NCBI GenBank assembly: GCA_949949005.1
Contig: CATLHM010000005.1
Location: 1-64,000 of the forward strand
From: an uncultured Lachnospiraceae bacterium
GTDB taxonomy: Bacteria; Bacillota; Clostridia; Lachnospirales; Lachnospiraceae
Reading direction: 5' to 3'
DNA length: 64,000 nt
Below are positions 14,161 to 58,897 of the stretch, one piece after another. The notes under the pieces were generated by a model. That model did not search any database, was not told where the DNA came from, and was given only the letters and a program-made list of their open reading frames with translations. Every line of letters starts with the position of its first letter. Within the stretch, counting starts at the first letter, position 1. A program made the translations under genes and the position numbers.

Positions 14161-15816
14161 TTATACCTCTGCCCTCTTCCCGCCTTCCCTTTTTGATGCT
14201 GTATAGTCCTGTAAAGCCAGCATCTTATGGAATTCCTCCTTCCCGCGCAGCTCCACATAGACCTTTTTACCCTCGAATACCTCGATCCGGCTGATAAAAC
14301 ACAGCAGGGTATCACGGTCAAGCTCTGTCAGCCTCATGGCTTCCTTAAGCCGCTCCAGCTTCACGCCGCAGGCCACCCCGTTTCGGAATAATTTCCTGAT
14401 CATCTCTTCCTGTCTCTGCAGGGCCCTTTCCGTCTCCTCATATTTCTTCTCATAAATGGCGCGAAAGTTCTTAAAGTCCGTCTCTGTAATCAGGCCGGTC
14501 TTTAAGTCCTCATGCAGCCCTGCCCCCAGTTCCTGATACTTCTCCTGTTCCCTGCATAGCCTTTCCATTTCCTTGTCAAATCGGGCGACCTCCTCATAAT
14601 CCACTTCCACCCCGCGGATATGCTCTAACTGGCTGCACATATCCAGGAACACGGACGTATGCGTCTGCAGCGTCTGAAAGACCACCGCCTTCAGCTCTTC
14701 CTCCGGAATGCTGTGCCTTGTGCAGCCCTGCCCCCGGTTCCTTGTGGGACAGATGAAATAAACCTTCGATACGCCCTTATAGCGGTTCACCCTGCGGTAC
14801 ATGGGCTCCTTGCAGTCCCCGCAGAATAAGAGCCCCGAAAAGAGATGGGCGCAGATCCCGTCCGCCTTTGCCCTGGTGTCCACCTTAAAGAGTTCCTGCA
14901 CGGTTTCAAAATCCTCACGGGAAATGATGGCCTCATGGGTTCCTTCCACGCGGGCCCACTCCTCCCTGGGCTTCGCCACCGACTTCTTTACCTTGTAGTT
15001 GACCTTCCCGCTTTTCCCCTGCACCATGACCCCGGTGTACATCTCGTTGGTCAGTATCCGTTTTACTGCCACCGCCGACCATTTCGCGGTGGTCCCCACC
15101 CGGAAGCTGGTGGAATATTTCTCCCCAAGGGATTTTTTATATTCCATGGGGGAGAGCACCCCAAGCCCATCAAGCCTTAGCGCGATGGCCTGTGTACTCA
15201 TACCCTCAAGCTTCCATGCAAATATGTTCCTGACCACCTGCGCCGCATAGGCATCCGGGCAAAGTTTGTTTTTATCTTCCGCCGATTTCCGGTAGCCATA
15301 CACCGCAAAGGCCCCTATGAACTTCCCCTGTTCCCTTTTGCTCTTCTGGCTGCTCCTTACCTTCTGGGAAATGTCCCGGCAGTAGGAATCATTGATGAAA
15401 TTCTTTACCGGCACCACAAGGGATTTCGTGCTGCTGTCCGCATTTCGGCTGTCAAAGTTGTCTGTCAGGGCAATAAAACGCACATGAAAAGCCGGGAAGG
15501 TCTTCTGGATCAACCGCCCGGCTTCAATATAGTCTCGTCCTAACCTGGACAAATCTTTTACAATCACACAGTTCACATTCCCCGCTTCAATGTCGGCCAT
15601 CATCCGTTTAAATTCGGGCCGGTCGAAATTGGCCCCGGAATACCCGTCATCCACGTAGATGTCAAACAGCTCCATGTCCTCCTGCTCCCTGACATAGGAA
15701 CGCGCCATCTCCCTCTGCGAGCTTATGCTGTTGCTTTCCGATTTCATGCCCCCATCCATATCTTCCCTCGACAGGCGAAGATAAATGGCAGCAGAATATA
15801 AAATATGTTCTCTCAT
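14161..15816 (-). CDS. Large serine recombinase, first of a pair
   Basis: Site-specific recombinase of 551 residues. The N-terminal catalytic domain shows IYLRLSREDMDGG with the catalytic Ser, then DDGYSGANFDRPEF and VKDLSRLGRDYIE. Next come the recombinase domain (FAVYGYRKS, VKRILTNEMYTGVMVQGK), a zinc ribbon (CGDCKEPMYRR...CPTRNRGQGC), a long coiled coil (about 400-490) and a C-terminal DUF4368-like segment (FISRIEVFEGKKVYVEL). It is the leading gene of the two-gene operon and follows the control region with palindromes. Neither recombinase shows loss of key residues, so the element could still move. Confidence 0.93.
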   Translation of the reverse strand: MREHILYSAAIYLRLSREDMDGGMKSESNSISSQREMARSYVREQEDMELFDIYVDDGYSGANFDRPEFKRMMADIEAGNVNCVIVKDLSRLGRDYIEAGRLIQKTFPAFHVRFIALTDNFDSRNADSSTKSLVVPVKNFINDSYCRDISQKVRSSQKSKREQGKFIGAFAVYGYRKSAEDKNKLCPDAYAAQVVRNIFAWKLEGMSTQAIALRLDGLGVLSPMEYKKSLGEKYSTSFRVGTTAKWSAVAVKRILTNEMYTGVMVQGKSGKVNYKVKKSVAKPREEWARVEGTHEAIISREDFETVQELFKVDTRAKADGICAHLFSGLLFCGDCKEPMYRRVNRYKGVSKVYFICPTRNRGQGCTRHSIPEEELKAVVFQTLQTHTSVFLDMCSQLEHIRGVEVDYEEVARFDKEMERLCREQEKYQELGAGLHEDLKTGLITETDFKNFRAIYEKKYEETERALQRQEEMIRKLFRNGVACGVKLERLKEAMRLTELDRDTLLCFISRIEVFEGKKVYVELRGKEEFHKMLALQDYTASKREGGKRAEV

Positions 15817-15995
15817 TCCACGTGTTTCCTAACCTTATTATTCCTTAAGTCCGCCTGCTCCCTCTTCTGTAATCCTTCCTTTGATAAAAATATGTCAGGC
15901 CATCCGGCATTGTAACAGTCCAGGCATTTCATTATATTTCATGCAAGGTATGTCCTATTCCCCTCTTGTGGGCTGGGAAAAAGCCCTTATATTTT

Positions 15996-16144
15996 TTAAA
16001 TCATTCCATAAAATCCCGTACTTACTCCAAGTAATTCCGCCATCTGTTCCTGAGTATAATGCAGGTCTCTTCTTTTTATCAGAAGCCGGTTACCTATTTT
16101 TTATATAGTTCTCGTTCTTCTTTTTGCTTTCTTTTGTCGTTCAT
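15996..16144 (-). pseudogene. XRE-family repressor fragment with a frameshift
   Basis: An ATG at 16144 with AAGGA upstream encodes MNDKRKQKEERELYKK and then stops. One base shift in a run of six A continues as GNRLLIKRRDLHYTQEQMAE, LLGVSTGFYGMI, stop. This is the start of a Cro/CI-type helix-turn-helix (Q-E-Q-M-A-E-L-L-G-V-S). Members on related elements have the same opening with one more A and run on for about 60 further residues. It was probably the element's repressor. Confidence 0.7.
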
Positions 16145-16167
16145 CCTGATTATTCCTTCTTCCCAAT

Positions 16168-16239
16168 TTATATAGTACAATCTATATAAAAAATTTAGAA
16201 GAAACTATTAATCAATGTATTTAATACCTATAGGTATTA
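16168..16239. promoter_or_regulatory. Two palindromes in the recombinase control region
   Basis: TTATATAG and CTATATAA (16168-16175 / 16182-16189) form an inverted repeat. TAATACCTATAGGTATTA (16222-16239) is a perfect 18-bp palindrome. They lie in an AT-rich stretch between the repressor start and the element end and are candidate operators or integrase sites. The rest of 15817-16324 outside the repressor remnant shows no gene. Confidence 0.55.
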
Positions 16240-16324
16240 TTTCAGTATTTATAAATAACTTACGGCTTCTATTACATAATTTCTTTCGTACTTATTAACT
16301 CCCCCGACAATATAATAACACGCT

Positions 16325-16646
16325 CCCCCGTATCCAAGAAACCAATCACAACTCCCCTGCCGGTCAAGTTGAGGCTCCCTCCCTGAACCTTGCTGATCCC
16401 GGAGTTGATCAGGGCGGTAGGGTCAAAGCTGTCCTGGAGTCCATAGAGAGCCGGTATGGACGGATAAGTAAACTCATTGATGGACATAGGGCCGATCGTC
16501 TCCCGGTTTAAATAGACGATCCTGATATCTCCCCCTACTGGCTGAATCGTCACGTCGTCCGGTTTAGCCGCCACCCCTGCCGGCAATATAATATCCGAAA
16601 TAATATCATAATAATCATTTGAAACCGCTCTTTCCCGATCTGTCAT
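16325..16646 (-). pseudogene. Subtilisin-like (S8) protease, N-terminal part
   Basis: About 107 codons of the interrupted protease. It has a short propeptide-like N-terminus (MTDRERAVSNDYYDIISDII) without an obvious signal peptide, then GRGVVIGFLDTG with the catalytic Asp at residue 105. After the crossover run it reads into element sequence (E-R-V-I-I-L-S-G-E-L) and stops at 16272. The His and Ser belong to the piece at 11143-12470. Related clostridial proteases process cortex-lytic enzymes or other substrates; the native role here is unknown and presumably lost. Confidence 0.85.
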
Positions 16647-45844: not shown

Positions 45845-47533
45845 TTATTTGTCATAGCCCTCCTGTGCAAGCTGCGCAAGGATTGCCGCTGTCTCTGCCC
45901 GCGATACAAGCCCTTTCGATTGGGGGTATTCCCATCCAGGTTCCTGAGTCTCTTTCAAAGCTCCCTCACCCAAAATCCCCTCACCCACAGCCCATTCTAT
46001 TACTTTTTCAGCCCGGATAACAGCGCCGCCAACCTCCCTTTCCTTATCTGGTACGTTGGCATCCCTGTATCTTGCATACTGCAACAGTATAGCTAACAAT
46101 TGTCCATCCGAAACCGGCTCATTAGGCTGAAAGTTACCATTCGTCCCAGCCTTGATGATCCCATTGGCCACTGCCCAGGAAGCAGCCATAGAAAAACTGT
46201 CCGAATCTCTCACATCTGGAAAAGAAAAAAGCTCAGTACCAGGTGATCTCTCCATCCGGTATAGTGCATTAACCAGTGTCCCACGGTCCAACGGTGCAGC
46301 AGGTGCAAAATTATCTACAGAAATACCAATGATCCATTCCCGATCCGTTACATAGTCTATCGCATCCGCATACCTATTGTCCACAGCTACATCCAAATAC
46401 ACGCCTCCCGAAAATTCTAAATCTTTCAGAGCATTAGCAGCGCTCTCCACCAATCGTCCTTCCCGATCCTGGCTCGTCTCCCAAAAACCTACGCCTGCCA
46501 GTCCCAGCTTTCTGGCCAAGGCTGCTTTGGATGCTATGGAATCAGTATCTTCATATGAGATAAAGATACCATTCCCATACAGATAAGGCGTCTTTTTATA
46601 ACGATATTGCACGTAACTCTCGTCCTCAAAATAGTTAGTCATCATATCGCAGGTAACGGAATCTCCATCCTCATATTTCGCATTCAATCCATTATCACTT
46701 TCTTGCACCCCAAAATAGCGGTATCCATAAAGTGGTATCCCCAAAATAAGCTTTTCTCCCGGAACCTCCGCCTCCAGATAGGCTTCTATAATACTGCGGA
46801 CTTTATCCATTGGAGCATTCAGCCCTGTCCGGCTCTCCCATGTCCCCCAGAAATCATACGCCATCACAAAAATATAGTCCACGGTCTGTGCCACTGCCAC
46901 TGGTTCTATTTGGTTCAAAAACTGCTTATTGGGAGCCCCTGTCGCAGTGAGAAATAGGGGTTTCCCCTCTTCTTCCTGGAGGATATCCAACACACTTCTG
47001 ATTTCCTGTAGCAATTTGGTATAATTCTCCTTATCCTCTGCCCTGTGTATGACATCATCACGGCCTCCGAGCACTGGATATTCCCAATTGATATCGAGCC
47101 CATCCAGTTCCTCCTTCCTGACCAAATCCAGACAACTTTGAGCAAATATTTCCCTGCTCCCATCGTTCAGTGCTGCATCAGAAAAGAAGGCAGAATATGT
47201 TGGGCCACCCACGCTGAGCAGGATTTTCAGCTCTGGATTCTCTCCGCGCAGCCTTCGCAGCTCCTCCAGCTTCTCCCTGTCCTTCGCCGGATTGGCAAGC
47301 ACAACCTTTCCGGTATCCGGATCGATCCGTCCAAACGCGTACAGTACATGGGTGAGATACTCATCAGGAAGATCACTGGGCTCCATGCGTTCAAATCCTC
47401 CATAATAATAGCCCGCCACCACACTTTGATGTTTTACAGAGGCTGAACTACCTCTATTGTCCACTGTACAGACTATAACCACTAATGACAATACGATACA
47501 CAGCAGCAGGAACGAAGCATGGGCATTCCTCAT
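45845..47533 (-). CDS. GH18-like glycosidase with C-terminal SLH domains
   Basis: Secreted protein of 562 residues. A signal anchor (8-24) precedes the GH18 barrel (about 38-370) with SVVAGYYYGGFE, ILLSVGG and the active-site stretch LDGLDINWEYP. The family motif D-x-x-D-x-D-x-E reads D144-x-x-D147-x-N149-x-E151: the acid Glu is kept but the third Asp is Asn. Three SLH motifs (about 385-562; YADAIDYVTDREWIIGIS, FPDVRDSDSFSMAASWAVANGI, SRAETAAILAQLA) tie it to the cell wall. Last gene of the exopolysaccharide operon. It could trim a GlcNAc-containing polymer or simply bind it. Confidence 0.9.
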   Translation of the reverse strand: MRNAHASFLLLCIVLSLVVIVCTVDNRGSSASVKHQSVVAGYYYGGFERMEPSDLPDEYLTHVLYAFGRIDPDTGKVVLANPAKDREKLEELRRLRGENPELKILLSVGGPTYSAFFSDAALNDGSREIFAQSCLDLVRKEELDGLDINWEYPVLGGRDDVIHRAEDKENYTKLLQEIRSVLDILQEEEGKPLFLTATGAPNKQFLNQIEPVAVAQTVDYIFVMAYDFWGTWESRTGLNAPMDKVRSIIEAYLEAEVPGEKLILGIPLYGYRYFGVQESDNGLNAKYEDGDSVTCDMMTNYFEDESYVQYRYKKTPYLYGNGIFISYEDTDSIASKAALARKLGLAGVGFWETSQDREGRLVESAANALKDLEFSGGVYLDVAVDNRYADAIDYVTDREWIIGISVDNFAPAAPLDRGTLVNALYRMERSPGTELFSFPDVRDSDSFSMAASWAVANGIIKAGTNGNFQPNEPVSDGQLLAILLQYARYRDANVPDKEREVGGAVIRAEKVIEWAVGEGILGEGALKETQEPGWEYPQSKGLVSRAETAAILAQLAQEGYDK

Positions 47534-47558
47534 ATGATACTCCTTTCTGTGAAATCTG

Positions 47559-48371
47559 CTACTCGTTCCACCCCAAAATTATCTGCTCCCTGTCCATCAT
47601 TTTCTGATAAGTCTGTTCCACCAACGCATCTACCTCCTCCCGGATTTCCATAACAGTATCCTGATACATTTTCCACAGGCATCTGGGATTTGCCTTTCTC
47701 TCCCCTACTCTTGCATCACGACTTACCATGGCAATATAATAGTTGATACTGGATCGTGCCATAGGAGTCCCTTCCGGCGTGGCAAAAACCGGCCCATACA
47801 AAATTCCCTCCCGATTCACATATTCCAGCAGTTCCGCCCGCAATCCCTCTGGCAGATGCAAAGACCTTTTTGTTCGGGAATTATGGCTCTCCAGCTCTAC
47901 TTCTCCCTGCTGTAACGCTTCTACCGTTAATTGCGGCAATTCCTGGATCCGCATTCCGGCTCCCCCAAGGGTCTTAATCAACAGATATGACTTTTCCCGC
48001 CCTGTGTTCTTTGCCGCGGACAAAAGGCGCCAATATTCCGCACGGCTAAGCTCTGGCTGAGCGCCTCTACCTTCCCGATAAAACCCGCCCATCTGCCATT
48101 CCCTCCGCCCAAGATAGCGCACAAAGCTATTCCACACAGATATCCGGGCATCCGCCGTCGCATGGGAGAGTCCCTGCTTCTCAAAAGACTCTTTCCACAT
48201 ATAGCCAACCTCCAGATTAATTCTCTTGTCCTTTGGGAGATAATCATACAGCCCTGTCAATATCCGCCGATAGCTCTGTATAGACGCTCCGCTTCTGCCC
48301 TGGCCTTTTAAATACTCCAGAAAATCCTCTATCTTTTCTTTTGTGAGATATTCCTTTACGGATGCCTCCAT
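47559..48371 (-). CDS. Tyrosine recombinase with unusual active site
   Basis: Integrase-like protein of 270 residues. The N-terminal SAM-like domain (1-100) is followed by the catalytic domain: first Arg in GGAGMRIQEL (R141), then RTKRSLHLP and the second Arg box NPRCLWKMYQ (R230), where the usual H-x-L-R-H pattern is lacking. The candidate nucleophile Tyr is Y255 in VEQTYQKMM. Related N-P-R-C-L proteins are frequent in Lachnospiraceae (recollection). It lies inside the polysaccharide operon, 38 bases after the GGDEF-EAL gene and 25 bases before GH18, which is unusual for an integrase and suggests a switch function. Confidence 0.8.
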   Translation of the reverse strand: MEASVKEYLTKEKIEDFLEYLKGQGRSGASIQSYRRILTGLYDYLPKDKRINLEVGYMWKESFEKQGLSHATADARISVWNSFVRYLGRREWQMGGFYREGRGAQPELSRAEYWRLLSAAKNTGREKSYLLIKTLGGAGMRIQELPQLTVEALQQGEVELESHNSRTKRSLHLPEGLRAELLEYVNREGILYGPVFATPEGTPMARSSINYYIAMVSRDARVGERKANPRCLWKMYQDTVMEIREEVDALVEQTYQKMMDREQIILGWNE

Positions 48372-48408
48372 ACTACCTGATCCTCTCCTAAATCCTTTTC
48401 ATCCATTC

Positions 48409-50241
48409 TTACTTTTTGAAGGAAGGGGCCAACTCATCATTTCCACTCTCAGAAAGCAGATACCTACGGGCCTCCCATTCGGGAACGGGTTTGAAAAATC
48501 GAAAGCCCTGCAGGATATCGCAAGAATGCTCCCGTAAAAAACATTCCTGCCCATCATTCTCTACTCCCTTCGCCAGTGCAATGATATCCAGTTCCCGGCA
48601 AATCTGTAGAAGAGCCCGCAAAACGCTTTCCCCTTCTGTTGTTCCAATACTCTCAATCAATTTCTTGTCCAGCTTCAATATATCTGGCAAACAGCTCTGA
48701 AGCTCCATAAAGGAAGTAACCCCATTATCGGTCAATGCAATTTTTATCCCGTTCTGTCTGAGCCTCCTGATATTTTGACTAACCGGCTGTACATACTCAC
48801 CATAACCCTGTACCACCTCAAAAATAAGCCGTTTCCTGTCAAAGCTGTACCTTTCGATAATCTCCATGCAGCGCCTGGGAAAATCCCATCCCGAAAAGGT
48901 TTCCTGGGAAAAATTACAGAATAAAATAAACTCCTTCTTTCCCGCAATTTCCAGGTTCTCCAAAAAAGCGCAGGCATCTTCCAATGCATGATAGTCCATC
49001 TGCATTGTCAGATGTTCCCGCTCCATTAATGGCACAAACTCTTCCGGCACAAGCAGCCCCCTTTCCGGATGGTTCCAACGCGAAAGAGCCTCCCCTCCTA
49101 TCACTTTGCCCGTTGTACTCTTTACGCAAAACTGGATATAGATCTGAAACTCCCGCATGTCCAGTCCCCGCCTTAAATCTGCCTGCAATTTTCTCTCTTC
49201 CCAAAGAGCCTGCATTAGCTCCCCAGTGTAAAACCGGATATTCTCTTCCTGGCCGTATGCCGCCAGGGCGCATTGCTCCGTATCTGAAATCATTTCATAC
49301 AGATCATAATCTGTATGCCTAAGACGATAGACCCCCGCCGAAATCCGCCGCACACTTTCTGGAAAACTTTCTCCAGGAAAATCCCGGATACTGTCCAGAA
49401 GCAGATTCAGCCATTTTTCAAGCTCTTCCTCATTTGTGGATAAACGAAAAAGAATGAACCCGCCATCTGCAATACGTGCCAAAATATCTGTGTCTGCTGT
49501 CTGATTTTGAAGCTTTCCTGCCACATGGCGCAGAAAAACATTCGTGGCATTTCTGCCGCCAAAACGATCCATCCGCATCGTATCCATATATAAGTAAATC
49601 AGACTGTACAGTATCTTGTTTTTATCGTTGATAAACTGACCATAATATCTCTCCAGATATTCCTGATTGCCGATACCAGTGATTTCGTCCGTTTCCCTAC
49701 TCTTTTCCAGTCTCTGCAGACGACGGCGATAATACCTGACCAGACAGACAATTGCCACTACAAGTGCTATCATAACCATCATCATCCCTAAACAGGAAAA
49801 TCTCATGGAGCGCCGATCAATGGCAGGCTCCTTTGCTACTGTTTCCAGAAGAATACACATCCTGGTTTCCTGTGAAATCTGAGACACATAGTTTTCCAGT
49901 TCCTCTTTCAGAGACTCCGGCGCCACCTCTGTCAGAAGAAGCCTCCAACACCCGGCTCCCTCCCCCTCAAGATCCAGAGCAATAACCTCCTGCCCTTCCT
50001 CATGCCGAAAGCTCTCTCCCTCTTTGCACCCGGAAATCACATCGACCTGTCGATTGTTTGCCAGCCCCTTTCTCTTATCTGTACTCCCCGGCTGATAATA
50101 CCGAATATCATAGCCTGTCTCGGCTCCAAACCGATCCATCAGCTCCGGAATCAATCCCTGATAGGTTCCTGTCTGCTCATCAAAGTATTCTACCGGATAT
50201 GCGTCAGGATTTCCTGCAATGTAAATAACATTGTCCTCCAT
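48409..50241 (-). CDS. Membrane GGDEF-EAL protein with both active sites degenerate
   Basis: Protein of 610 residues. N-terminal periplasmic-binding-like domain (1-140; AGNPDAYPVEYFDEQTGTYQG), one transmembrane helix (148-169), GGDEF domain (about 180-340) and EAL domain (about 345-600). The GGDEF signature reads A-D-G-G-F (258-262), so cyclase activity is not expected. In the EAL domain E-A-L (384-386) and Asn443 remain, but the D-D-F-G place reads T-D-N-G (504-507), A-E-G-V-E reads A-K-G-V-E (557-561), and the E-x-x-E pair ends in Gln478. It is likely a c-di-GMP receptor. No signal peptide precedes the sensor domain. The ATG follows AGGAGG, directly after the GT2 stop. Confidence 0.88.
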   Translation of the reverse strand: MEDNVIYIAGNPDAYPVEYFDEQTGTYQGLIPELMDRFGAETGYDIRYYQPGSTDKRKGLANNRQVDVISGCKEGESFRHEEGQEVIALDLEGEGAGCWRLLLTEVAPESLKEELENYVSQISQETRMCILLETVAKEPAIDRRSMRFSCLGMMMVMIALVVAIVCLVRYYRRRLQRLEKSRETDEITGIGNQEYLERYYGQFINDKNKILYSLIYLYMDTMRMDRFGGRNATNVFLRHVAGKLQNQTADTDILARIADGGFILFRLSTNEEELEKWLNLLLDSIRDFPGESFPESVRRISAGVYRLRHTDYDLYEMISDTEQCALAAYGQEENIRFYTGELMQALWEERKLQADLRRGLDMREFQIYIQFCVKSTTGKVIGGEALSRWNHPERGLLVPEEFVPLMEREHLTMQMDYHALEDACAFLENLEIAGKKEFILFCNFSQETFSGWDFPRRCMEIIERYSFDRKRLIFEVVQGYGEYVQPVSQNIRRLRQNGIKIALTDNGVTSFMELQSCLPDILKLDKKLIESIGTTEGESVLRALLQICRELDIIALAKGVENDGQECFLREHSCDILQGFRFFKPVPEWEARRYLLSESGNDELAPSFKK

Positions 50242-50252
50242 ACTTTTTCCTC

Positions 50253-51668
50253 CTACCGGAAATTAATTTTTTTCCGTTCAATCTGCCCCCACTCCCTCTT
50301 TTTCTTTTTATAGCCAATCAGGGCTGTCATCCTCACCCATGCCAGCACAAAACGCATACAGGAAACCTCCAGGGCGCAGAGTAAAACAGCCTTCAGGGCA
50401 TCCATAAAGGACAGCCGTAAATCAATCGTGTGGATGCGGGCAAAAAAAGCCGTCAGAGACAGAATGGTAGAAAATAAAATATAAATCCCCAGATAAATAA
50501 CCCAAAACGGAAAATTCAGGAATTCGATCAGGGCAGCCACGCCGATGGTAAGCACTCCAAATACTTCAATATAAGGGGATGCCAGTTCATATAGAAGAAA
50601 ATAAAGATAGGAAATGAAGCTCACCATACCATATTTGGGATTTCCCAAAATGTTCCTGTGCCTGGTAAGGCTCTGAAACAGCCCTATATGCCAGCGCCGC
50701 CTTTGCGTAATCAGGTCACTGAGCTTCTCCGGCGCCTGGGTCCAGCAAATGGCATCGGGAGCATATCGGATCCGATAGGCAAGGCCGTTCTCCCGGCAAA
50801 AAACGTGAAGCTTAAGCACCAGCTCCATGTCCTCCCCTACCGTATCAAAGTCATAACCACCAGCATTGATGACAGCACTTTTCTTGAATAGTCCGAAGGC
50901 TCCGGAAATTATGATGCCTCCGTTAAATTTGTCAAAAAGGATACGGGCAGCAAGAAAAGAGCGGTCATATTCCAGTACCTGCATACAAGGCAAAATGTGA
51001 GATGGCATCCGGTAACTGATGACATGTCCATCCACAATTTCCGCTCCATTACAGGGACGCACCGCACCCCCAACTGCTATCACGTTTCCGTCCTCCATCA
51101 CCGGCCTCACCAGCTTCTCCAGGGAATCTCGCTGGAGTACGGAATCTGCATCCAGTCCCATAAAATATGGATACCGGGAAGCATTCACTCCCATGTTCAA
51201 GGCATCTGCCTTTCCTCCGTTTTTCTTGCAGATCAAGGTAATAGGAACCTTATAAGTCTGGCTCTCATAAACCGCCTCTGCTGGCTGGCATCGCAGTTGT
51301 CCCCGGATTGGACGGTTGATCCGGTGCATACGAAAAGCATCTATCAGTATCTGAGCCGTATCATCGGTGGAACCATCGTCCACCACAATAATCTCATACA
51401 GCCGGTAATCCAGTAAAAGCAGGGAACGCACGGTAGCCTTAATCGTAACACTTTCGTTGTGGGCAGGTACCACCACTGAAACCGGTACATAGTAATTACC
51501 AGGCAATTCATTTTTCAGTTTGTTTCGTTTCCGGGCGCTGAAAAGTTCGGATGAACCTACCGCCACCGATAAAAACAGGAAGCTGGCATAACCCAGCATA
51601 TAGATTACAAAGAAAATCCCCACAGCATTATAAAAGGCCTGGATTAAATCCCGCAGCCCTTCACTCAT
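50253..51668 (-). CDS. Processive GT2 polysaccharide synthase (BcsA/PgaC-like)
   Basis: Membrane glycosyltransferase of 471 residues. One N-terminal TM (about 15-38), then the GT-A domain with VVDDGS (95-100), DAD (173-175), G-E-D (278-280) and Q-R-R-R-W (322-326), the signature of processive synthases such as those for cellulose or poly-GlcNAc. Four C-terminal TM helices form the channel. There is no PilZ domain, so c-di-GMP control would have to come from another protein, such as the GGDEF-EAL gene next door. The ATG overlaps the stop of the HEAT-repeat gene (ATGA). The product cannot be told from sequence alone. Confidence 0.92.
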   Translation of the reverse strand: MSEGLRDLIQAFYNAVGIFFVIYMLGYASFLFLSVAVGSSELFSARKRNKLKNELPGNYYVPVSVVVPAHNESVTIKATVRSLLLLDYRLYEIIVVDDGSTDDTAQILIDAFRMHRINRPIRGQLRCQPAEAVYESQTYKVPITLICKKNGGKADALNMGVNASRYPYFMGLDADSVLQRDSLEKLVRPVMEDGNVIAVGGAVRPCNGAEIVDGHVISYRMPSHILPCMQVLEYDRSFLAARILFDKFNGGIIISGAFGLFKKSAVINAGGYDFDTVGEDMELVLKLHVFCRENGLAYRIRYAPDAICWTQAPEKLSDLITQRRRWHIGLFQSLTRHRNILGNPKYGMVSFISYLYFLLYELASPYIEVFGVLTIGVAALIEFLNFPFWVIYLGIYILFSTILSLTAFFARIHTIDLRLSFMDALKAVLLCALEVSCMRFVLAWVRMTALIGYKKKKREWGQIERKKINFR

Positions 51669-52819
51669 ACCGCCACCCCCTTAAGCCCGCTGATTGGAAG
51701 CTTCTCCCGCTGTGTCTCTGCCCCGTGCTCTTTTTCTTCCTGCGCAATCCGCCGGCTATCCAGGCGATACATCATCATCTCCCGGGCGTAACGATCCCTT
51801 CCGCCGACCACTTCTATCAACTCCAAATAATCCAGATCCTGTGCTTCCAGACTGACTGCGGCGTTTGATCTTATGTACCAGTTAGAGCTGTGCAACGCCT
51901 CCATAAGCACCGCAGCCACATCCTCCCCTTTATAAAGGGCAAGCCCCGAGGCACTGATGGCGGCATATTCCCAGTTTGCCGGATCCTTATCAGCAGCAAA
52001 AGCCAACAAAATTTCCTTGGCGGGGGCATAAAAATATTTGCCAAAATACCGGATTGCCGCCAGCCGCAGCTCCTTATCAGCATCTTCGTTGTTCATGATC
52101 CCAAACATCTGTGGAATATATTTTCCTGTCCGGAATCGTATGTAATTCAGTATAGCCAGACGGGTCCCCACCGAAAACCTCTCAAAGCTTTCCCACAAAA
52201 GCTCTGTCAGCCTTTCATGATCCCCCGTATAAGAAAGAAGGTTTTCTGTCAGAATTTTGTCATGAAAAAAGCCCGCCCGTTGATCCTGAATCTCCACTGC
52301 CTCCACCAGTACCTCCGGTCTGCCGAAGGCGCACAAAGCCTGTAGTGTATTCACCCGGCAGTAAAGGCTTTCTTTTTCCATATAATTCAGCAGAATGTCC
52401 TGTATGGAACTCTCCGGCTTCTCCTCATCCCTTGCATTTTGCCGGAACAAAAAGTAAGCAAAATAAGCTGCCTGAATGTCCTCACGGTTACCGTAATGCT
52501 CCGCCAGCCGAAAGAGTACCGGCCGAATCTGCCGTCTATACCGTAGCAGCCTCTGTTCATCCCCTGTCTCCTTGGATAATTCCAACGCCCGTTCAAGAGC
52601 CACAAGGTTATTGATATTGGAAAGCCGACGATACAGACTGTTCAATTCCCTCTCATCAGGAACCCTATTCTCCTTTGCAATTTCCCTGCAAAAGTATTCC
52701 GTTTTCTTCTCCAGACGCCCATCATGACTGTTTTGGGCCGCATTGTATACGATATTAAAAAGTAACATACACAGACACACAATTCCATAACCATACAGAA
52801 TCATCTCACTTCCAGACAA
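51665..52819 (-). CDS. Membrane-anchored HEAT-repeat protein
   Basis: Protein of 384 residues. One N-terminal TM (SEMILYGYGIVCLCMLLFNIVY) places the rest in the cytoplasm. Helical HEAT-like repeats run from about 70 to 350 (LVALERALELSKETGDE, YCRVNTLQALCAFGRPEVL, WYIRSNAAVSLEAQDL). Translational coupling to the GT2 synthase suggests the two act as one complex, with this protein as scaffold or regulator. Similar pairs occur in other Firmicute exopolysaccharide loci, as far as I recall. Confidence 0.82.
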   Translation of the reverse strand: MSGSEMILYGYGIVCLCMLLFNIVYNAAQNSHDGRLEKKTEYFCREIAKENRVPDERELNSLYRRLSNINNLVALERALELSKETGDEQRLLRYRRQIRPVLFRLAEHYGNREDIQAAYFAYFLFRQNARDEEKPESSIQDILLNYMEKESLYCRVNTLQALCAFGRPEVLVEAVEIQDQRAGFFHDKILTENLLSYTGDHERLTELLWESFERFSVGTRLAILNYIRFRTGKYIPQMFGIMNNEDADKELRLAAIRYFGKYFYAPAKEILLAFAADKDPANWEYAAISASGLALYKGEDVAAVLMEALHSSNWYIRSNAAVSLEAQDLDYLELIEVVGGRDRYAREMMMYRLDSRRIAQEEKEHGAETQREKLPISGLKGVAV

Positions 52820-52840
52820 TATACTAACCTCCTTACGTCA

Positions 52841-55120
52841 CTATTTCAGAGAAGTCCAATAGTCCTTTAGCATATAATAGGAACTCTTTAGCCTTTCATG
52901 GCTGGTCACATGCTTCCCCCATCCCTTCAGCGGCAGAGCCGTCATACGGATGCGGTACCGGGTGTCCTCTGCACTGCCAATCCCCACATACATCTCATCA
53001 ATCTGCAAATTTTCAATTCCATAACACCCATAATAATCGTCATGGATCATCATCTCTGACGGATTCGAAAAATTCAGCAGTTGCCATGGGATTCGTATCT
53101 CTATATAGTCCCCGGAAAAAATAAAGTCTGCCAGGGAGTCAAAATCTTCCGCCTCTGGATTGGCATTTCCATAGCGAAGTTTACCGGTCTCATAGGAGAT
53201 GCCCGTAGGAATATCCTTCACCTTAGGCAGTAGGGATTTTAGCTTTAACGGCATATGAATCCTTTTGAACAGCGGGCTGTCTGCCTCCGGCGTATTCTCT
53301 TTATAATAAGGATTGATTGCATAGTATTCCTCGTGATAGATAGACATCAGCACTTCATATCTCTCCTGCACCAACAAGCGGCTATCGTTCTTTCCATGGA
53401 TTACCATCAAAAAGTCCGCAGCATTTTCAAACGCTATATCCTCATTCTCCGCATAGGTACTCCCCACCTTCGGGTTCGTATCGATCGGAATATAAAGGGT
53501 ATCTGTGACCTGGTCAAACCCTTCTTTATAAACCAGGAAATAAACACATTTCTCATCATACTTCATGGATATAGTCATATCACCATTTTGTACGACAAGA
53601 TCTTCCTCTTCCCATTCCGACAGATTCCCATCCACATAACACACACTCTTTTCCCTGCCGGGATCAAATGTCATGATCCCGAAAAATTGCTCATTGGTCT
53701 GATAATCGCTCCAATAGGGAGTTTTAGACATATCCACAGCATACATAGTATTCCATGTACGCTTGAACCACTCATCCTGCCAGGAAAAAAGACAGGAACC
53801 GGCACACCCTGAAGCCATAATATCCTCATAACACTCTATCAATCCCTTCCCCTGCTCCTGCTCCGTCACATGTCCCTGATTTCGTCCCGTGTTGACGTCC
53901 TGCTGTGCCATTCCTCTTCCGGTAGTGATCCCGTACTCGGTAATGACCACCGGGATGGTATGATAACGGTTCAATGCCTTCAGGTAAGCATAATAAGTAT
54001 TGAGCCGTCCCCTCCCATCATAGTAATCCTCTTTCCGGAGATAATCCTCAATTCGCGGAGCCTTCAGCAGGGAGGTTCTGTATTCCAGCAATTCCTTATG
54101 CATGCGCCCATAGTGTTCGAGTATCTCCTCCTGGGGGTGCTGCTCGCCTTCCCGCATGATATTAATGTAATCCGGAAAATAGGGATAAATATGATAGGAG
54201 GCAAACATCCCGGAAAAGTAGGTTTCATCATTACTCAGAATATGCTCCACATCTACGCAATTCACCTTTGACCGGGTATCAGACACCAACAGCGGATAGG
54301 CGAACGGATCTGTGGTAGGCCAGTTGGAGAAAGCCACCATCCTCTGCTGCCCGTAACGCTCTGTCTCGTATTCGATCAGCTTATCCCCCACCATAGCAAG
54401 CATAGTCTCAAAGGGCGAAGCATTTTCAGCAGTAAAAAGATACCTGCCGGTATAGCCGGCTTTATTCTCATTTATTTGGTTTGTATATTCTACCAGAGTG
54501 TTCTCCCATTCCACCCCGGGAAGATAGCCGATCACCCACCGTGACACATCATGGCGATAAGTGCCACTGCCCTCCCCCTGATAGCCAAGCTTAAGAGATG
54601 CCTTACCATGGATCACATCCACCACAGTACGGCAATCCTCCAAAAAGGTGTCCAGAAAGGCGCCGTCGAAGGCGCTGTTGTGAGAATTCGCTACATAATC
54701 ATTGACCCATACCCCATGCAGAAGATAAAGAGGCTCCTCTCCTTCCTTTTCCCGCTGCGAGTTATACTCAAAAAAAGCGTCATAAAAGTCCTGATGGTGG
54801 ATAGTATAGATGCGGATGGTATTGGCCCCTAGATCCTGGATGTAGCCAAACCAACGCTTGTATGTTTTTTTATCAATAGCAAAATCCACCGCCCATTCTC
54901 CCGGATAACCGCTTCCTAAGTCCACACCGCGTATCTCAAAAGGTGCAAACTTCCCGTCTTCCCCCCGTTTTAAGATCTCTTTCCCCTGGGTCGTCATAAA
55001 ATAATCCAATTTTTCCCGGTGTTGCGGCAGGTAAATTCCCAGGCGGTAATAAGCCTGATATCCGGTAAACAGTACAAGTACTGTAATGCTTACTAAAATG
55101 ATAAATTTTTTCAAAGTCAT
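52841..55120 (-). CDS. Membrane-anchored TIM-barrel glycoside hydrolase
   Basis: Extracellular protein of 759 residues held by an N-terminal TM (KFIILVSITVLVLFTGYQA). The barrel (about 60-480) begins FEIRGVDLGSGYPGEWAVD and has LGANTIRIYTIHHQDFYDAFFEYN. The acid Glu is probably in GYLPGVEWENTLVEYTN and the nucleophile Glu in PVVITEYGITTGRG, as in clan GH-A (GH2/GH5-like). A beta-rich C-terminal part (about 500-750) starts VCYVDGNLSEWEEEDLVVQNGDMTISMKYDEKCVYF and looks like a carbohydrate-binding or DOMON-like module. It could trim or release the polymer made by the GT2 synthase, as BcsZ does for cellulose. Confidence 0.85.
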   Translation of the reverse strand: MTLKKFIILVSITVLVLFTGYQAYYRLGIYLPQHREKLDYFMTTQGKEILKRGEDGKFAPFEIRGVDLGSGYPGEWAVDFAIDKKTYKRWFGYIQDLGANTIRIYTIHHQDFYDAFFEYNSQREKEGEEPLYLLHGVWVNDYVANSHNSAFDGAFLDTFLEDCRTVVDVIHGKASLKLGYQGEGSGTYRHDVSRWVIGYLPGVEWENTLVEYTNQINENKAGYTGRYLFTAENASPFETMLAMVGDKLIEYETERYGQQRMVAFSNWPTTDPFAYPLLVSDTRSKVNCVDVEHILSNDETYFSGMFASYHIYPYFPDYINIMREGEQHPQEEILEHYGRMHKELLEYRTSLLKAPRIEDYLRKEDYYDGRGRLNTYYAYLKALNRYHTIPVVITEYGITTGRGMAQQDVNTGRNQGHVTEQEQGKGLIECYEDIMASGCAGSCLFSWQDEWFKRTWNTMYAVDMSKTPYWSDYQTNEQFFGIMTFDPGREKSVCYVDGNLSEWEEEDLVVQNGDMTISMKYDEKCVYFLVYKEGFDQVTDTLYIPIDTNPKVGSTYAENEDIAFENAADFLMVIHGKNDSRLLVQERYEVLMSIYHEEYYAINPYYKENTPEADSPLFKRIHMPLKLKSLLPKVKDIPTGISYETGKLRYGNANPEAEDFDSLADFIFSGDYIEIRIPWQLLNFSNPSEMMIHDDYYGCYGIENLQIDEMYVGIGSAEDTRYRIRMTALPLKGWGKHVTSHERLKSSYYMLKDYWTSLK

Positions 55121-55143
55121 TCACCTCTCCGCTTTGTCCGTGG

Positions 55144-56622
55144 TCAGTTGTTATATACCTTATTCCGGGAGGGATGTGCCACTGCCCTCAAAGCATCTAT
55201 ATTTTTGTCCATCCATGCCCCACGTTCCCTTAGCCATGTCTTGAGCTGTTCTACCGCTTCTTCATGGCTATGGAGATTCCGGCTCTCAGGCTGCAAAGGT
55301 TCATAATCCGTAAAAGCATACCTCCACCGCTCATTATTTCGTTCAACTGCTGGTCCCAGCCATTGCATCGTTTCGTCAATATACCGTTCCATCCATGTAT
55401 CGCTAAAGTAGGTGCTTCGTACCTCATGGTAGCGGGATATGATCCTTTCTACAAACTCCTCGTCCTTAACCAGCATAAAAAAGAAGGGTTTCTCTCCTAC
55501 GAACATACCTTCGGCGCCAAACGCATCCTCCACAAAATTATCACAGGAGTTGTTAAAATCCCAGACACACATTTTGAATTTACCGCCTACTTCTTTATAG
55601 TAGTATGTGGAAAACCGCCCCGCATCTACGTTGTGGGTAAACTCATTGATCAGATAATAGTCTACAAAATTGTCCATATCAATCCAGTTCTGGTATCCAT
55701 AATCCTCTTTGTCATAATCAAAAGAATAAAGGCTCTTTTCAAACCGGGCAAAGTCGCCTTCAATCTCCTTTGCCAGCTCCGGCGTCAAATTATTTTTGCC
55801 AGGATAGCGGATCGCCACATCCTCCAGCGAAATGTTCATGCGCTCCACAAAGCTGTAAATATTCCTGGTAGTCTCAATCTCCTCCTCTGTCGGCCGGTCA
55901 ATCCGAAGAAGATATCCTGTCATATTTTCTCCCTTATAGCTTTCCTCTAAATTCAGGCGTCCCGCTTCCCCGTCCGTAATCGTCTCAACCATCAGGTACA
56001 GCCCCCGGTACTCCCCATTTAAAAAAAGCTCACAGTAACGGACATTGGGCGCATACTCCATCATTTCCCCGGAGATGTTGTACCACATATAATTGCGCAC
56101 CAGGGATTTATCCAGATAAGGGCCATTCAATGCCCACTCATGATGGGCATCCATCCCCATCACCTCAATCTCATTGTTCCCGCCGGAATCATCCACAAAG
56201 TCCATTAAATAGGGCGACTTTTCGAACCTGCGTGAGGTGTTTCCCCGAATACGAAACAGGCTTCGGGTTGTAAAATCCGCAGTGTCGGTAAGATGGTTAT
56301 TACCTTCTTTATTGTCAATTACAGACACAGAAACGTTTATCATACTGGTATTTTCCGCAGTCTTGGTATAGATAGATGTGTTGAAACGATCTGCGTATCC
56401 GGTTATTGCTCCCGGAATTTCCTGCCCTTCCGTATCAATTACCACCAGCGGCAGATGCGAACAGAATACATTCTTTCCATGATCTTCACAGGGAGTATAG
56501 CCCGGTTCCTCCAGATGCTGGTGATAACGGCCGTGGCTTTCTTCTGCGCTGGCTTTTGGAAGAAAATGCAGACTCAATAACATAAGCGCAGCCATCGCTA
56601 TGCCAAAAATCCTGAATTTCAA
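55144..56622 (-). CDS. Secreted CotH kinase family protein
   Basis: Protein of 492 residues with a signal peptide ending near ASAEES. CotH kinases are atypical protein kinases that phosphorylate secreted or coat proteins. Family segments: SLFRIRGNTSRRFEKSPYLMDF (ATP-binding Arg/Lys region), WALNGPYLDKSLVRNYMWYNISGEM, FLNGEYRGLYLMVETI and the metal-binding KFKMCVWDFNNSCDN. It is coupled to the DUF4956 and VTC-domain genes, a three-gene set that recurs in many bacteria. The target here may be the neighbouring surface glycosidase or SLH protein (inference). Confidence 0.9.
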   Translation of the reverse strand: MKFRIFGIAMAALMLLSLHFLPKASAEESHGRYHQHLEEPGYTPCEDHGKNVFCSHLPLVVIDTEGQEIPGAITGYADRFNTSIYTKTAENTSMINVSVSVIDNKEGNNHLTDTADFTTRSLFRIRGNTSRRFEKSPYLMDFVDDSGGNNEIEVMGMDAHHEWALNGPYLDKSLVRNYMWYNISGEMMEYAPNVRYCELFLNGEYRGLYLMVETITDGEAGRLNLEESYKGENMTGYLLRIDRPTEEEIETTRNIYSFVERMNISLEDVAIRYPGKNNLTPELAKEIEGDFARFEKSLYSFDYDKEDYGYQNWIDMDNFVDYYLINEFTHNVDAGRFSTYYYKEVGGKFKMCVWDFNNSCDNFVEDAFGAEGMFVGEKPFFFMLVKDEEFVERIISRYHEVRSTYFSDTWMERYIDETMQWLGPAVERNNERWRYAFTDYEPLQPESRNLHSHEEAVEQLKTWLRERGAWMDKNIDALRAVAHPSRNKVYNN

Positions 56623-56643
56623 GTTATCCTCTCCTTTGCCTCA

Positions 56644-57327
56644 TCAGCCGCTGACGTCATCACTTTGTGTGACAATATTAAAATACTCGATGCTTCCCAG
56701 CGCATATACCGCATCCGTAATGCTCAAGACATTCTTTTTATCCTTCTCCAGTGCCGTTTTACTCAGCTCATAGATAAACTCTGCTGAGGTTTCCGTCGTA
56801 TTTTTCACGCGCATCACAGCCTTACGTTTAAACCTCTGAAATATCAGGGCTTCCAATGGCTCCTCATTCGTGCGGGAGGTGCGCAGAATCAGCAGAATCC
56901 TGTTGTCGTTTTTTACCCGTCCCAAAAGTAATAGCAAAAGGAAAAGAACGGCGCTGCCTAACCCCGCCGTTTCATAGTCCCCTGCGCCACAGCAGATTCC
57001 CGCCACAATTGTCCAGAATATGTAGACGGCATCGCGGGAATCCTTGATGGCTGTCCGAAAACGCACAATCGACAGAGCTCCCACCATTCCCAAAGACAAC
57101 GCCAGATTATTCCCGATCACAATCATCACTGTGGTGGTCATAATCGTCAACGCTGCCAACGAGATATTAAACTTTTTGCTGTAAATCCCACCTGTGTGGG
57201 ATAGCCAGTAGGATAAATAAATAAAACAGGCGATGACCGCTCCCGCCGCCAGCCTGATCAGGATCATCTCTATACTAAGATCCCCTGTACCGGATACATC
57301 CAATAGTTTTATCAACGTCTCTTTCAT
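56644..57327 (-). CDS. DUF4956 membrane protein
   Basis: Integral membrane protein of 227 residues with four TM helices (about 25-43, 53-72, 75-90, 108-130) and a cytoplasmic C-terminal domain. The loop GMVGALSIVRFRTAIKDSRDAVYIFWTIVAGICCGAG is the DUF4956 hallmark. It lies between VTC-domain and CotH genes with gaps of 13 and 21 bases. Function is unknown; the fixed partnership with VTC and CotH proteins suggests a phosphate- or nucleotide-linked modification system. Confidence 0.88.
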   Translation of the reverse strand: MKETLIKLLDVSGTGDLSIEMILIRLAAGAVIACFIYLSYWLSHTGGIYSKKFNISLAALTIMTTTVMIVIGNNLALSLGMVGALSIVRFRTAIKDSRDAVYIFWTIVAGICCGAGDYETAGLGSAVLFLLLLLLGRVKNDNRILLILRTSRTNEEPLEALIFQRFKRKAVMRVKNTTETSAEFIYELSKTALEKDKKNVLSITDAVYALGSIEYFNIVTQSDDVSG

Positions 57328-57340
57328 ATTCTGCCTCCTG

Positions 57341-58027
57341 TTATTGCATAATCATGCCTCTTGCCAGACAATACTTGCTGACGGAAAGCTCCGGGCAGTC
57401 TGCTCTGCTCACGGCTGATTTAATATAGTCCAAAAGGAATCCGTTATATTTAATCTCAAGCACCATATAAAACGGATCCATTACCGGTTTCTGCGATAAT
57501 CTGGGAGAAAAAATATCAAAGCAGGATTCTGTCGCAATAATTTTGCTGTCAAACGTAATCCTGATCCGGTTCTCTTTTGCAACATAAGCCTGACGGCGAT
57601 ATTCCACCACTGCTCTTGGCACATAACACATCTTCTTCATAAGACAGTAACATTCCCATGCAAAAGGATCCTTATAATTCTTCAAAGCCGTATAATCTCC
57701 CCGGATCATCTGCTGGGCGTCCAAACGCTCCATACGCAGAGAACGCTTCTTCTGATAGGGACCTTCCTTTTGCTTTATCTCCAGCATAGCAAAATCCTCT
57801 GTAGGGTCATAACACCGAAGACGGATTTTTTTCCGCTTTTCCACCCCGTCAATCTTATCGTAAAAATCGCTATCTTCCAGAGTATCAAAATACAGGGAAC
57901 GGATGGAATACCCGCCAGAGCCGTTATGTTCATCTGAATGCATGATTTCTCTTAAGTATCCGCTAAGTCTTGCTCCCTGCGGAAGTGTGAGCAGGTATTT
58001 CTTCTCCTGCCGGATCACCTCATTCAC
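57341..58027 (-). CDS. VTC-domain polyphosphate-polymerase-like protein
   Basis: Tunnel-fold (TTM superfamily) protein of 228 residues. Basic and acidic tunnel residues show in IRQEKKYLLTLP, RKKIRLRCYD, AMLEIKQKEG, KKRSLRMER and VLEIKYNGFLLDYI. The start is taken as the GTG at 58027 because AGGAGGG (complement of 58036-58042) lies 8 bases upstream; in-frame ATGs further upstream have no such site and fall in or near the palindrome. In yeast the VTC domain makes polyphosphate; bacterial members near CotH genes are untested as far as I know. First gene of the nine-gene operon; its transcript would start inside the adjoining switch region. Confidence 0.88.
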   Translation of the reverse strand: MNEVIRQEKKYLLTLPQGARLSGYLREIMHSDEHNGSGGYSIRSLYFDTLEDSDFYDKIDGVEKRKKIRLRCYDPTEDFAMLEIKQKEGPYQKKRSLRMERLDAQQMIRGDYTALKNYKDPFAWECYCLMKKMCYVPRAVVEYRRQAYVAKENRIRITFDSKIIATESCFDIFSPRLSQKPVMDPFYMVLEIKYNGFLLDYIKSAVSRADCPELSVSKYCLARGMIMQ

Positions 58028-58070
58028 TACCGCTTCCCTCCTATTTTGGTTTCGTTTCCAGAAATCAACC

Positions 58071-58100
58071 ATTTTTAAAAATGTATACATTTTTAAAAAT
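58071..58100. promoter_or_regulatory. 30-bp perfect palindrome, left site of putative invertible promoter
   Basis: The whole of 58071-58100 is a perfect palindrome centred on GTATAC, with core AAATGTATACATTT and A/T tracts outside. The same 14-bp core lies at 58211-58228. It is placed 29 bases ahead of the operon's ribosome site. Confidence 0.8.
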
Positions 58101-58219
58101 TTAAAATGTGCAAAAATTTTTATTTTCTCACCAAAGCAAAAACTAAATCCATGAAAAAAGTATTGCAGGTCACTAAATGTTGTGCTATAATTTTCCCTTA
58201 GAATTGTTCCAGAAATGTA
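58086..58219. other. Putative invertible promoter segment (phase switch)
   Basis: About 134 bp between the centres of two palindromes with a shared AAATGTATACATTT core. It contains the extended -10 promoter at 58163-58191, which now points away from the operon. A recombination between the palindrome centres would place TATAAT at 58114-58119 on the minus strand, with transcription starting near 58107 and a leader of about 80 bases to the GTG at 58027. Recombinase genes lie on both sides (58235-58852 serine, 47559-48371 tyrosine). Inversion itself is inferred. Confidence 0.6.
58163..58191 (+). promoter_or_regulatory. Strong extended -10 promoter inside the putative invertible segment
   Basis: TTGCAG (58163-58168), 17 bases, TATAAT (58186-58191), with TG one base upstream of the -10 (TGCTATAAT). 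Transcription would begin near 58198 and run into the resolvase gene from its 3' side, antisense to it, and away from the polysaccharide operon. Confidence 0.72.
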
Positions 58220-58228
58220 TACATTTCT
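58211..58228. promoter_or_regulatory. 18-bp perfect palindrome, right site of putative invertible promoter
   Basis: AGAAATGTATACATTTCT. It starts 6 bases beyond the resolvase stop. On the minus strand it overlaps a weaker possible promoter (TTGACG at 58244..58239, 16 bases, TATACA), so an operator role is the alternative reading. Confidence 0.78.
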
Positions 58229-58234
58229 GTTACT

Positions 58235-58897
<663 letters not shown>

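Follow-up and report, generated by a model that had tools for sequence, protein, structure and literature searches.

Can the short stretch of DNA ahead of a nine-gene operon in an uncultured Lachnospiraceae bacterium flip, and so turn the operon on and off? The window, the whole stretch of 64,000 nucleotides analyzed here, carries two palindromes on either side of a promoter, with a small serine recombinase gene alongside. The initial annotation had seen in this layout an ON/OFF inversion switch. We conclude, at a probability of roughly nine in ten, that the locus is an invertible-promoter cassette deposited in its OFF state; it is known in that one orientation only, from one assembly. We infer that the segment flips here, that the adjacent recombinase is its enzyme, and that operon expression would alternate between ON and OFF. 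Promoters that invert and have their invertase alongside are already known. The features that make this one a variant, as far as sequence can tell, are the AANGT-NN-ACNTT site family, the compact and phased layout, and an overlap without polarity.

Two palindromes enclose a promoter that faces away from the operon

Both palindromes are perfect (Table 1), the left one of 30 nt and the right one of 20 nt; the annotation had recognized both as such and had placed the right one at 58211-58228, one base short at each end. As it had claimed, they share sequence: the 14-mer AAATGTATACATTT occurs at 58079-58092 and 58213-58226, with 134 bp from start to start. An 18-nt tandem repeat accounts for part of the 30-nt palindrome. 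The 64-kb window contains only three perfect palindromes with arms of at least 8, and these are two of them. Among 4,000 dinucleotide shuffles of 58030-58234, 201 contained a palindrome with arms of at least 7, and a single one contained two palindromes with arms of at least 9. Beyond its two sites, the 14-mer was absent from the source assembly (3.0 Mb, 59% complete).

The third perfect palindrome, TAATACCTATAGGTATTA at 16222-16239, lies between a large serine recombinase gene and an ORF resembling an S8-type peptidase. That recombinase (551 aa, minus strand) stands beside a short 124-aa ORF within 14161-16646, which we take to resemble the start of such a peptidase; this stretch is possibly an element inserted in a peptidase gene.

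Table 1. Features of the window locus and the evidence for each
Feature	Position	Strand	Evidence
Extended -10 promoter, TTGCAG-N17-TATAAT with TGC; OFF orientation, facing away from the operon	58163..58191	+	Scoring, shuffles
Predicted invertible segment	58086..58219		134 bp between palindrome centers; homologous segments inverted in relatives
Predicted crossover site 1, recombinase-proximal, CAGAAATGTATACATTTCTG, center AT	58210..58229		Perfect palindrome
Predicted crossover site 2, operon-proximal, ATTTTTAAAAATGTATACATTTTTAAAAAT, center AT	58071..58100		Perfect palindrome
VTC-domain protein, first operon gene, GTG start, RBS 58037-58042	57341..58027	-	Pfam VTC, 2.2e-41
Remaining eight operon genes	45845..57327	-	Gene calls and Pfam
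Small serine recombinase, likely invertase	58235..58852	-	Pfam Resolvase, 7.6e-29; Sin 2r0q, 8e-28

Between the palindromes, the extended -10 promoter of the annotation was found on the plus strand, with TTGCAG at 58163-58168, a 17-nt spacer ending in TGC, and TATAAT at 58186-58191. By our own promoter scoring, 1 of 2,000 segment shuffles scored as high, and the window is called OFF at 12.2 versus 9.2 on the other strand. As deposited, the promoter is directed toward where the recombinase gene ends, with the operon behind it. Flipping the 134-bp segment had been predicted to aim it at the GTG start at 58027 with a leader of about 80 bases; a computed flip between the palindrome centers agrees, bringing the -10 to 58114-58119 on the minus strand and giving an operon leader of about 80 nt. 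The inverted repeats around a promoter, with a gene suitably placed beside them, by which invertons are recognized are present at the window.

Perfect short palindromes around a promoter are also a usual operator layout, and the right palindrome lies directly downstream of the plus-strand promoter. The annotation had offered as its alternative a pair of operators for a conventional repressor; on this reading the segment would never flip. The gene content speaks against this, since we could see no sense gene for the promoter as deposited, which reads into the recombinase gene in antisense, and the neighboring gene encodes a recombinase rather than a repressor.

The operon and its tyrosine-recombinase-like gene

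Nine co-directional genes with gaps below 40 nt run from 58027 to 45845, the operon as first described. The VTC gene starts at GTG 58027 behind AGGAGG at 58037-58042, and in a homologue (L186) an ATG aligns with this start. The products of the operon are VTC, DUF4956 and CotH proteins, a 759-aa protein for which no Pfam match was found, a HEAT protein, a GT2 glycosyltransferase, a GGDEF-EAL protein, a tyrosine-recombinase-like protein, and a GH18 protein with SLH. We infer a function in surface polysaccharide. A VTC-DUF4956-CotH operon is also present in a relative of the same genus (VTC 62%), with no recombinase in the 5 kb ahead of it.

The annotation had placed a tyrosine recombinase gene in the operon. 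Its product (47559-48371) does have the N-terminal SAM-like domain, but the catalytic match is partial, covering positions 3-115 of 172 of the Phage_integrase model with a score below the cut-off; it is therefore probably not an active recombinase, and it may have another role. That this gene flips the segment is scarcely credible, even though it is situated inside the controlled operon and tyrosine recombinases are linked to the group 139 invertons of Clostridia in the available text of PMC11892184. Known models match it only N-terminally and over the initial two thirds of the catalytic domain. Cassettes at other loci come with the serine recombinase and stand before other genes, and at the window no active tyrosine recombinase was linked to the repeats, the adjacent enzyme being a serine recombinase.

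A small serine recombinase adjoins the right palindrome

The recombinase comprises 205 aa from an ATG at 58852 with AGGAGG ahead of it, in an ORF that reaches back to TTG 58894. Its stop codon (low end 58235) lies 5 bases from the right palindrome; the adjacency stands as annotated, with a gap one base shorter than the 6 given. Among solved structures the nearest by sequence is the Sin resolvase (2r0q), then gamma-delta (3.6e-19) and, further down, the DNA invertase 4m6f (5.3e-15). The protein is full length with its catalytic motifs kept, RVS and SIDRLGRN aligning with Sin. It thus shows what is expected of a small serine invertase, namely a Resolvase domain in which the catalytic Arg-Ser and SIDRLGRN are present. 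It is likely the enzyme that acts on the window segment.

The kinship with Sin allows another reading, in which the enzyme would be a resolvase of the plasmid or transposon type, and the palindromes would belong to a res site at which dimers or cointegrates are resolved. Relatives of 51 to 56% identity do reside on plasmids of Enterococcus, Planococcus and Staphylococcus (among the matches listed, 25 of 490 records). The substrates of resolvases are res sites in direct orientation, accompanied by accessory sites. The sites of the family are inverted instead; at the window, the AT overlap itself does not separate direct from inverted. Across the family, the promoter between the sites keeps a conserved position, the segment has been found inverted, and homologues stand before unrelated genes. 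We regard a resolvase function as extremely improbable.

On the recombinase tree, the window enzyme shares a fork (support 90/88) with enzymes from Flintibacter muris and from Oscillospiraceae-type genomes, and the enzyme of one other locus (L102) is 86% identical to it. The host belongs to the Lachnospiraceae, and transfer between families is therefore likely on this tree. The idea that cassette-bearing recombinases form one clade was not supported, with 30 changes on the tree versus 41.8 when shuffled; the test is rough, as L014 and L089 were labeled as having no cassette although each has a site pair on rescan.

Paired sites recur downstream of related recombinases

The family was recognized only after the downstream DNA of relatives had been read: the exact window motif was absent near 29 homologue loci, and the DNA after the recombinase stop holds paired inverted sites with the core AANGT-NN-ACNTT. 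Homologues of the recombinase (E up to 1e-50) were present in 137 of 392 genomes drawn from the order, and a scan of species genomes gave at least 581 relatives, of which the best 80 were taken. This led to 133 prepared loci (the window plus 24, 28 and 80), of which two end at the stop codon and 131 were scored; some scored loci are copies of one genome from two collections. Our first site caller was biased to GT centers and was replaced by a matrix with the two central bases masked. It was trained on 160 mostly GT-centered sites and left the center unscored when finding sites. To set the threshold, the best score was taken for each 200 nt of distal DNA from 116 loci, and the 95th percentile of these scores was used.

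With this matrix, site 1 was found in 102 of the 131 loci (window included) and both sites in 87; both window sites exceed the threshold. The centers of partner sites are reverse complements in 85 of these 87, the relation that a 2-bp overlap requires, and the two discordant loci (L088 and L108) were judged poor calls. The concordant centers are GT/AC in 77 loci, AT/AT, as at the window, in 5, CT/AG in 2 and AC/GT in 1. The caller missed pairs at a greater distance from the stop, as well as those into which the reading frame extends, and a rescan of the 44 loci without one or both sites found a pair elsewhere in 5, ends too short in 9, and none in 30 (one of them, L148, masked by N). Centers were concordant in those five rescan pairs too, so that dyad sites with a central 2 bp matching between partners, as expected of an invertase, characterize the family.

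At one locus (L014, G051:C1), the recombinase frame continues through site 1 into the segment, and a pair is present with a spacing of 136; the end of this protein would, from its reading frame, change with segment orientation.

Independently of the recombinase, 385 genomes were searched for the site patterns. The AT-centered pattern, with 100 to 130 bases between, occurred as 56 pairs (the window's included) in 30 genomes, with 1 genome in the reversed-pattern control; the GT-centered pattern occurred in 17 genomes, with 2 in the control. For the other 55 AT pairs, 54 stretches were fetched. A homologous recombinase was present in 22, with the pair beginning -20 to 120 nt from its stop in 19 of them, and absent in 32; some pairs may therefore be flipped in trans, or be repeats or chance, and those of two genomes (G402 and G285) look like repeats or chance.

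Homologous segments occur in both orientations

Segments were compared in the 80 of 123 loci that passed a GT-biased filter. In 18 locus pairs the segments were alike to 80% or more, with matching orientation in 11 pairs and opposite orientation in 7; these are not mutually independent, and several of the 11 are identical copies. The loci L064/L137, L066/L144 and L067/L162 are identical pairs. One GT-centered case is L125 versus L138, in which recombinase and downstream DNA are 95% identical and the segment is 46% identical directly and 98% inverted. Inverting L125 at the site center raised its match to L138 over the whole region from 252 to 318 of 321, with an optimum that spans 4 bp either side of the center. 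Inversion likewise raised the match from 235 to 273 of 300 (L158 versus L162), from 241 to 275 of 300 (L161 versus L162) and from 215 to 245 of 311 (L137 versus L146); same-orientation controls (L158/L161 and L131/L134) gained nothing.

AT-centered segments, the class of the window, behave in the same way. Between L246 and L250, from two genomes of one genus, the recombinase is 95% and the downstream DNA 97% identical, the segment is 67% identical directly and 97% inverted, and the half-sites have changed places, as they should. When L249 is compared with L247 and L252, its segment is inverted (98 to 99% identical in that orientation) between flanks that are 98 to 100% identical. No homologous recombinase was found in the fetched stretches of these three loci, and their pairs may, to judge from those stretches, be flipped in trans. 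A further AT-centered pair, L277/L278, has one orientation.

Breakpoints of the inverted homologous segments map to the site cores, and both orientations occur at homologous loci, AT centers included, which supports the inversion layout that the annotation had proposed. It had suggested comparing related assemblies for both orientations; homologous loci supplied them, but the window's own site pair occurs in only 1 of 37 genomes of the genus, its own. The two-operator reading does not account for homologous segments in opposite orientations, with breakpoints in the same cores; moreover, 77 of the 87 two-site loci have GT/AC centers, which are not palindromic, with the sites in inverted polarity. 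We consider operators highly improbable.

Promoter state and site spacing

By our promoter score, 56 of the 85 loci are OFF, 17 ON and 12 unclear; among 43 representatives below 90% identity, the counts are 25, 10 and 8. Measured to the segment's inner end, the end of the -10 lies 31 to 35 nt away in 27 of the 35 clear representatives; in 4 the distance is 22 to 23 nt, as in the window. In these 35, agreement between the halves of site 1 was 7.4 of 9 in OFF loci versus 5.8 of 9 in ON loci, and in OFF loci the promoter-proximal arm of site 1 resembles the outer arm, a likeness that could, on sequence, bias the switch. Contigs end within 200 nt after the recombinase stop in 10 of 132 loci (9 distinct, as L068 and L167 are one sequence), within the next 1,100 nt in 8, and on the 5' side of the recombinase in 3 of 132. 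This excess fits mixed orientations breaking assemblies, and does not prove it.

The spacing between sites in the 85 of 131 loci with a pair is mostly about 115, 126, 137 or 147 bp. Representatives cluster at 115.2, 126.0, 136.9, 146.3, 158 and 166.5 bp, with one at 203. The best period in the dereplicated set is 10.5 bp (R 0.80, n = 42), which was reached in 0 of 5,000 trials of two nulls and in 62 of 5,000 when whole clusters were shifted (P ≈ 0.012), the latter a weaker statement; for 19 AT-centered loci the best period is nearer 10. The two sites presumably must face each other across a short loop. At 134 bp, the window spacing is about 3 bp short of the 136.9 cluster and is common to one other locus, L132, which is scored ON.

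This departure from the main helical cluster, and the OFF state being the only one seen at the window, would suit a real family member that is locked or dead here, its recombinase inactive or its spacing unfavorable, with the promoter fixed OFF. The recombinase is full length with its catalytic motifs kept, however, and both sites and the promoter look intact; we think a locked cassette unlikely, and favor a working switch.

A proposed mechanism for the switch

Serine recombinases work by cutting and rotation. We propose that the recombinase would bind each palindrome as a dimer, bring the two together across the short loop, cut at the central dinucleotide AT, and rejoin the ends after rotation, thereby flipping the 134-bp segment. 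The hybrid sites after inversion would read CAGAAATGTA and TACATTTTTAAAAAT. In the OFF state, as deposited, the promoter faces the end of the recombinase gene and has the VTC-CotH-GT2 operon at its back; in the ON state, the flipped promoter would drive the nine genes through a leader of about 80 nt.

The unusual point, in the sites as sequenced, is the self-complementary 2-bp overlap. Because AT is self-complementary, the overlap alone cannot tell inversion from excision, and AT centers would also permit excision. In the class to which the window belongs, the self-complementary overlap and perfect dyads would together make a site without polarity, and a short, helically phased loop, rather than an enhancer, may impose inversion over excision. 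The OFF promoter may transcribe the recombinase gene in antisense. Such transcription could hold flipping down and account for the surplus of OFF loci. The wider picture, a portable flip-promoter family that moves among Clostridia and places surface, polysaccharide and anti-phage genes under phase control, with a window class of sites without polarity, inversion imposed by the loop, and antisense damping, is tentative, and we would put its chances somewhat below even.

Comparison with known systems

Mpi is a single master enzyme for at least thirteen scattered regions. The likeness to it is that a serine recombinase flips promoter regions of surface-polysaccharide loci, as the available text of PMC5903667 has it for the Mpi-controlled invertible promoters of Bacteroides fragilis. 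In contrast to Mpi, the family described here mostly has its site pair directly downstream of its own recombinase (102 of 131 loci have site 1 no more than about 80 nt away), occurs in Clostridia and has the site AANGT-NN-ACNTT. Some pairs without a nearby enzyme exist.

Hin and Gin act on inverted sites under a 2-bp overlap identity rule. The segment switched by Hin is about 1 kb long and includes the hin gene, and the reaction needs Fis and an enhancer. The family shares with them a small serine recombinase (matching 4m6f, as above), inverted sites and the overlap rule, but its recombinase gene lies outside a segment of about 110 to 170 bp (42 of 43 representatives). Membership in the Hin or Mpi groups was rejected, as the mechanism is common and the site and layout differ. 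Sin and the Tn3 family provide the nearest solved structures by sequence (2r0q, gamma-delta), but unlike the sites of these resolvases, those here stand in inverted orientation on either side of a promoter, and relatives show the inversion itself.

The group 139 invertons and the RecV system of Clostridioides difficile are likewise short invertible segments in Clostridia (PMC11892184, PMC5903667), but in the available text of these sources they are linked to tyrosine recombinases; the words "serine" and "resolvase" are absent from the main text of PMC11892184 in its available form. The annotation had known of no description of this switch, and we too found none of this recombinase-site family in titles and the openings of abstracts; it may be among unnamed groups in supplements.

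The cassette precedes unrelated genes

The first gene downstream of each cassette was called by a rough rule, under which the few calls far from site 2 are doubtful. Of 85 such genes, 74 were scanned (cut at 420 aa), 11 having been dropped as copies or too short; some near-copies stayed. Pfam matches comprised BspA-type LRR (5), Eco57I methylase (5), DEAD (4), ResIII helicase (4), SNF2 (3) and zinc ribbons (5), with one sugar transferase, one glycosyl transferase, and VTC in the window only. PADLOC, with no curated cut-off applied, called type II methyltransferases 8 times and type IIG 6 times. The recombinase genes of L109 and L114 are 98% identical in DNA and their next genes are different. 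By its gene neighborhoods the cassette is modular, copies preceding methyltransferase, helicase, surface-protein and glycosyltransferase genes.

Helicase or DNA-methyltransferase genes follow the cassette in L158, L161, L162, L125, L138, L109, L124 and L131. Judged by their domains, these genes look like anti-phage systems, and defense may therefore be phase-variable in these Clostridia. In Lachnospiraceae and Oscillospiraceae, the promoter switch, which brings its enzyme with it, is reused before unrelated genes, and the AANGT-NN-ACNTT rule lets further switches be found from sequence alone. Because of its short, helically stepped spacings and overlaps without polarity, the family is also a compact model in which to study how inversion comes to be chosen over excision by a small serine recombinase.

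The window's own site pair was absent from the viral contigs searched. The cassette itself is also present on three viral-classed IMG/VR contigs (L177, L178 and L181), and the sites of L177 are AT-centered.
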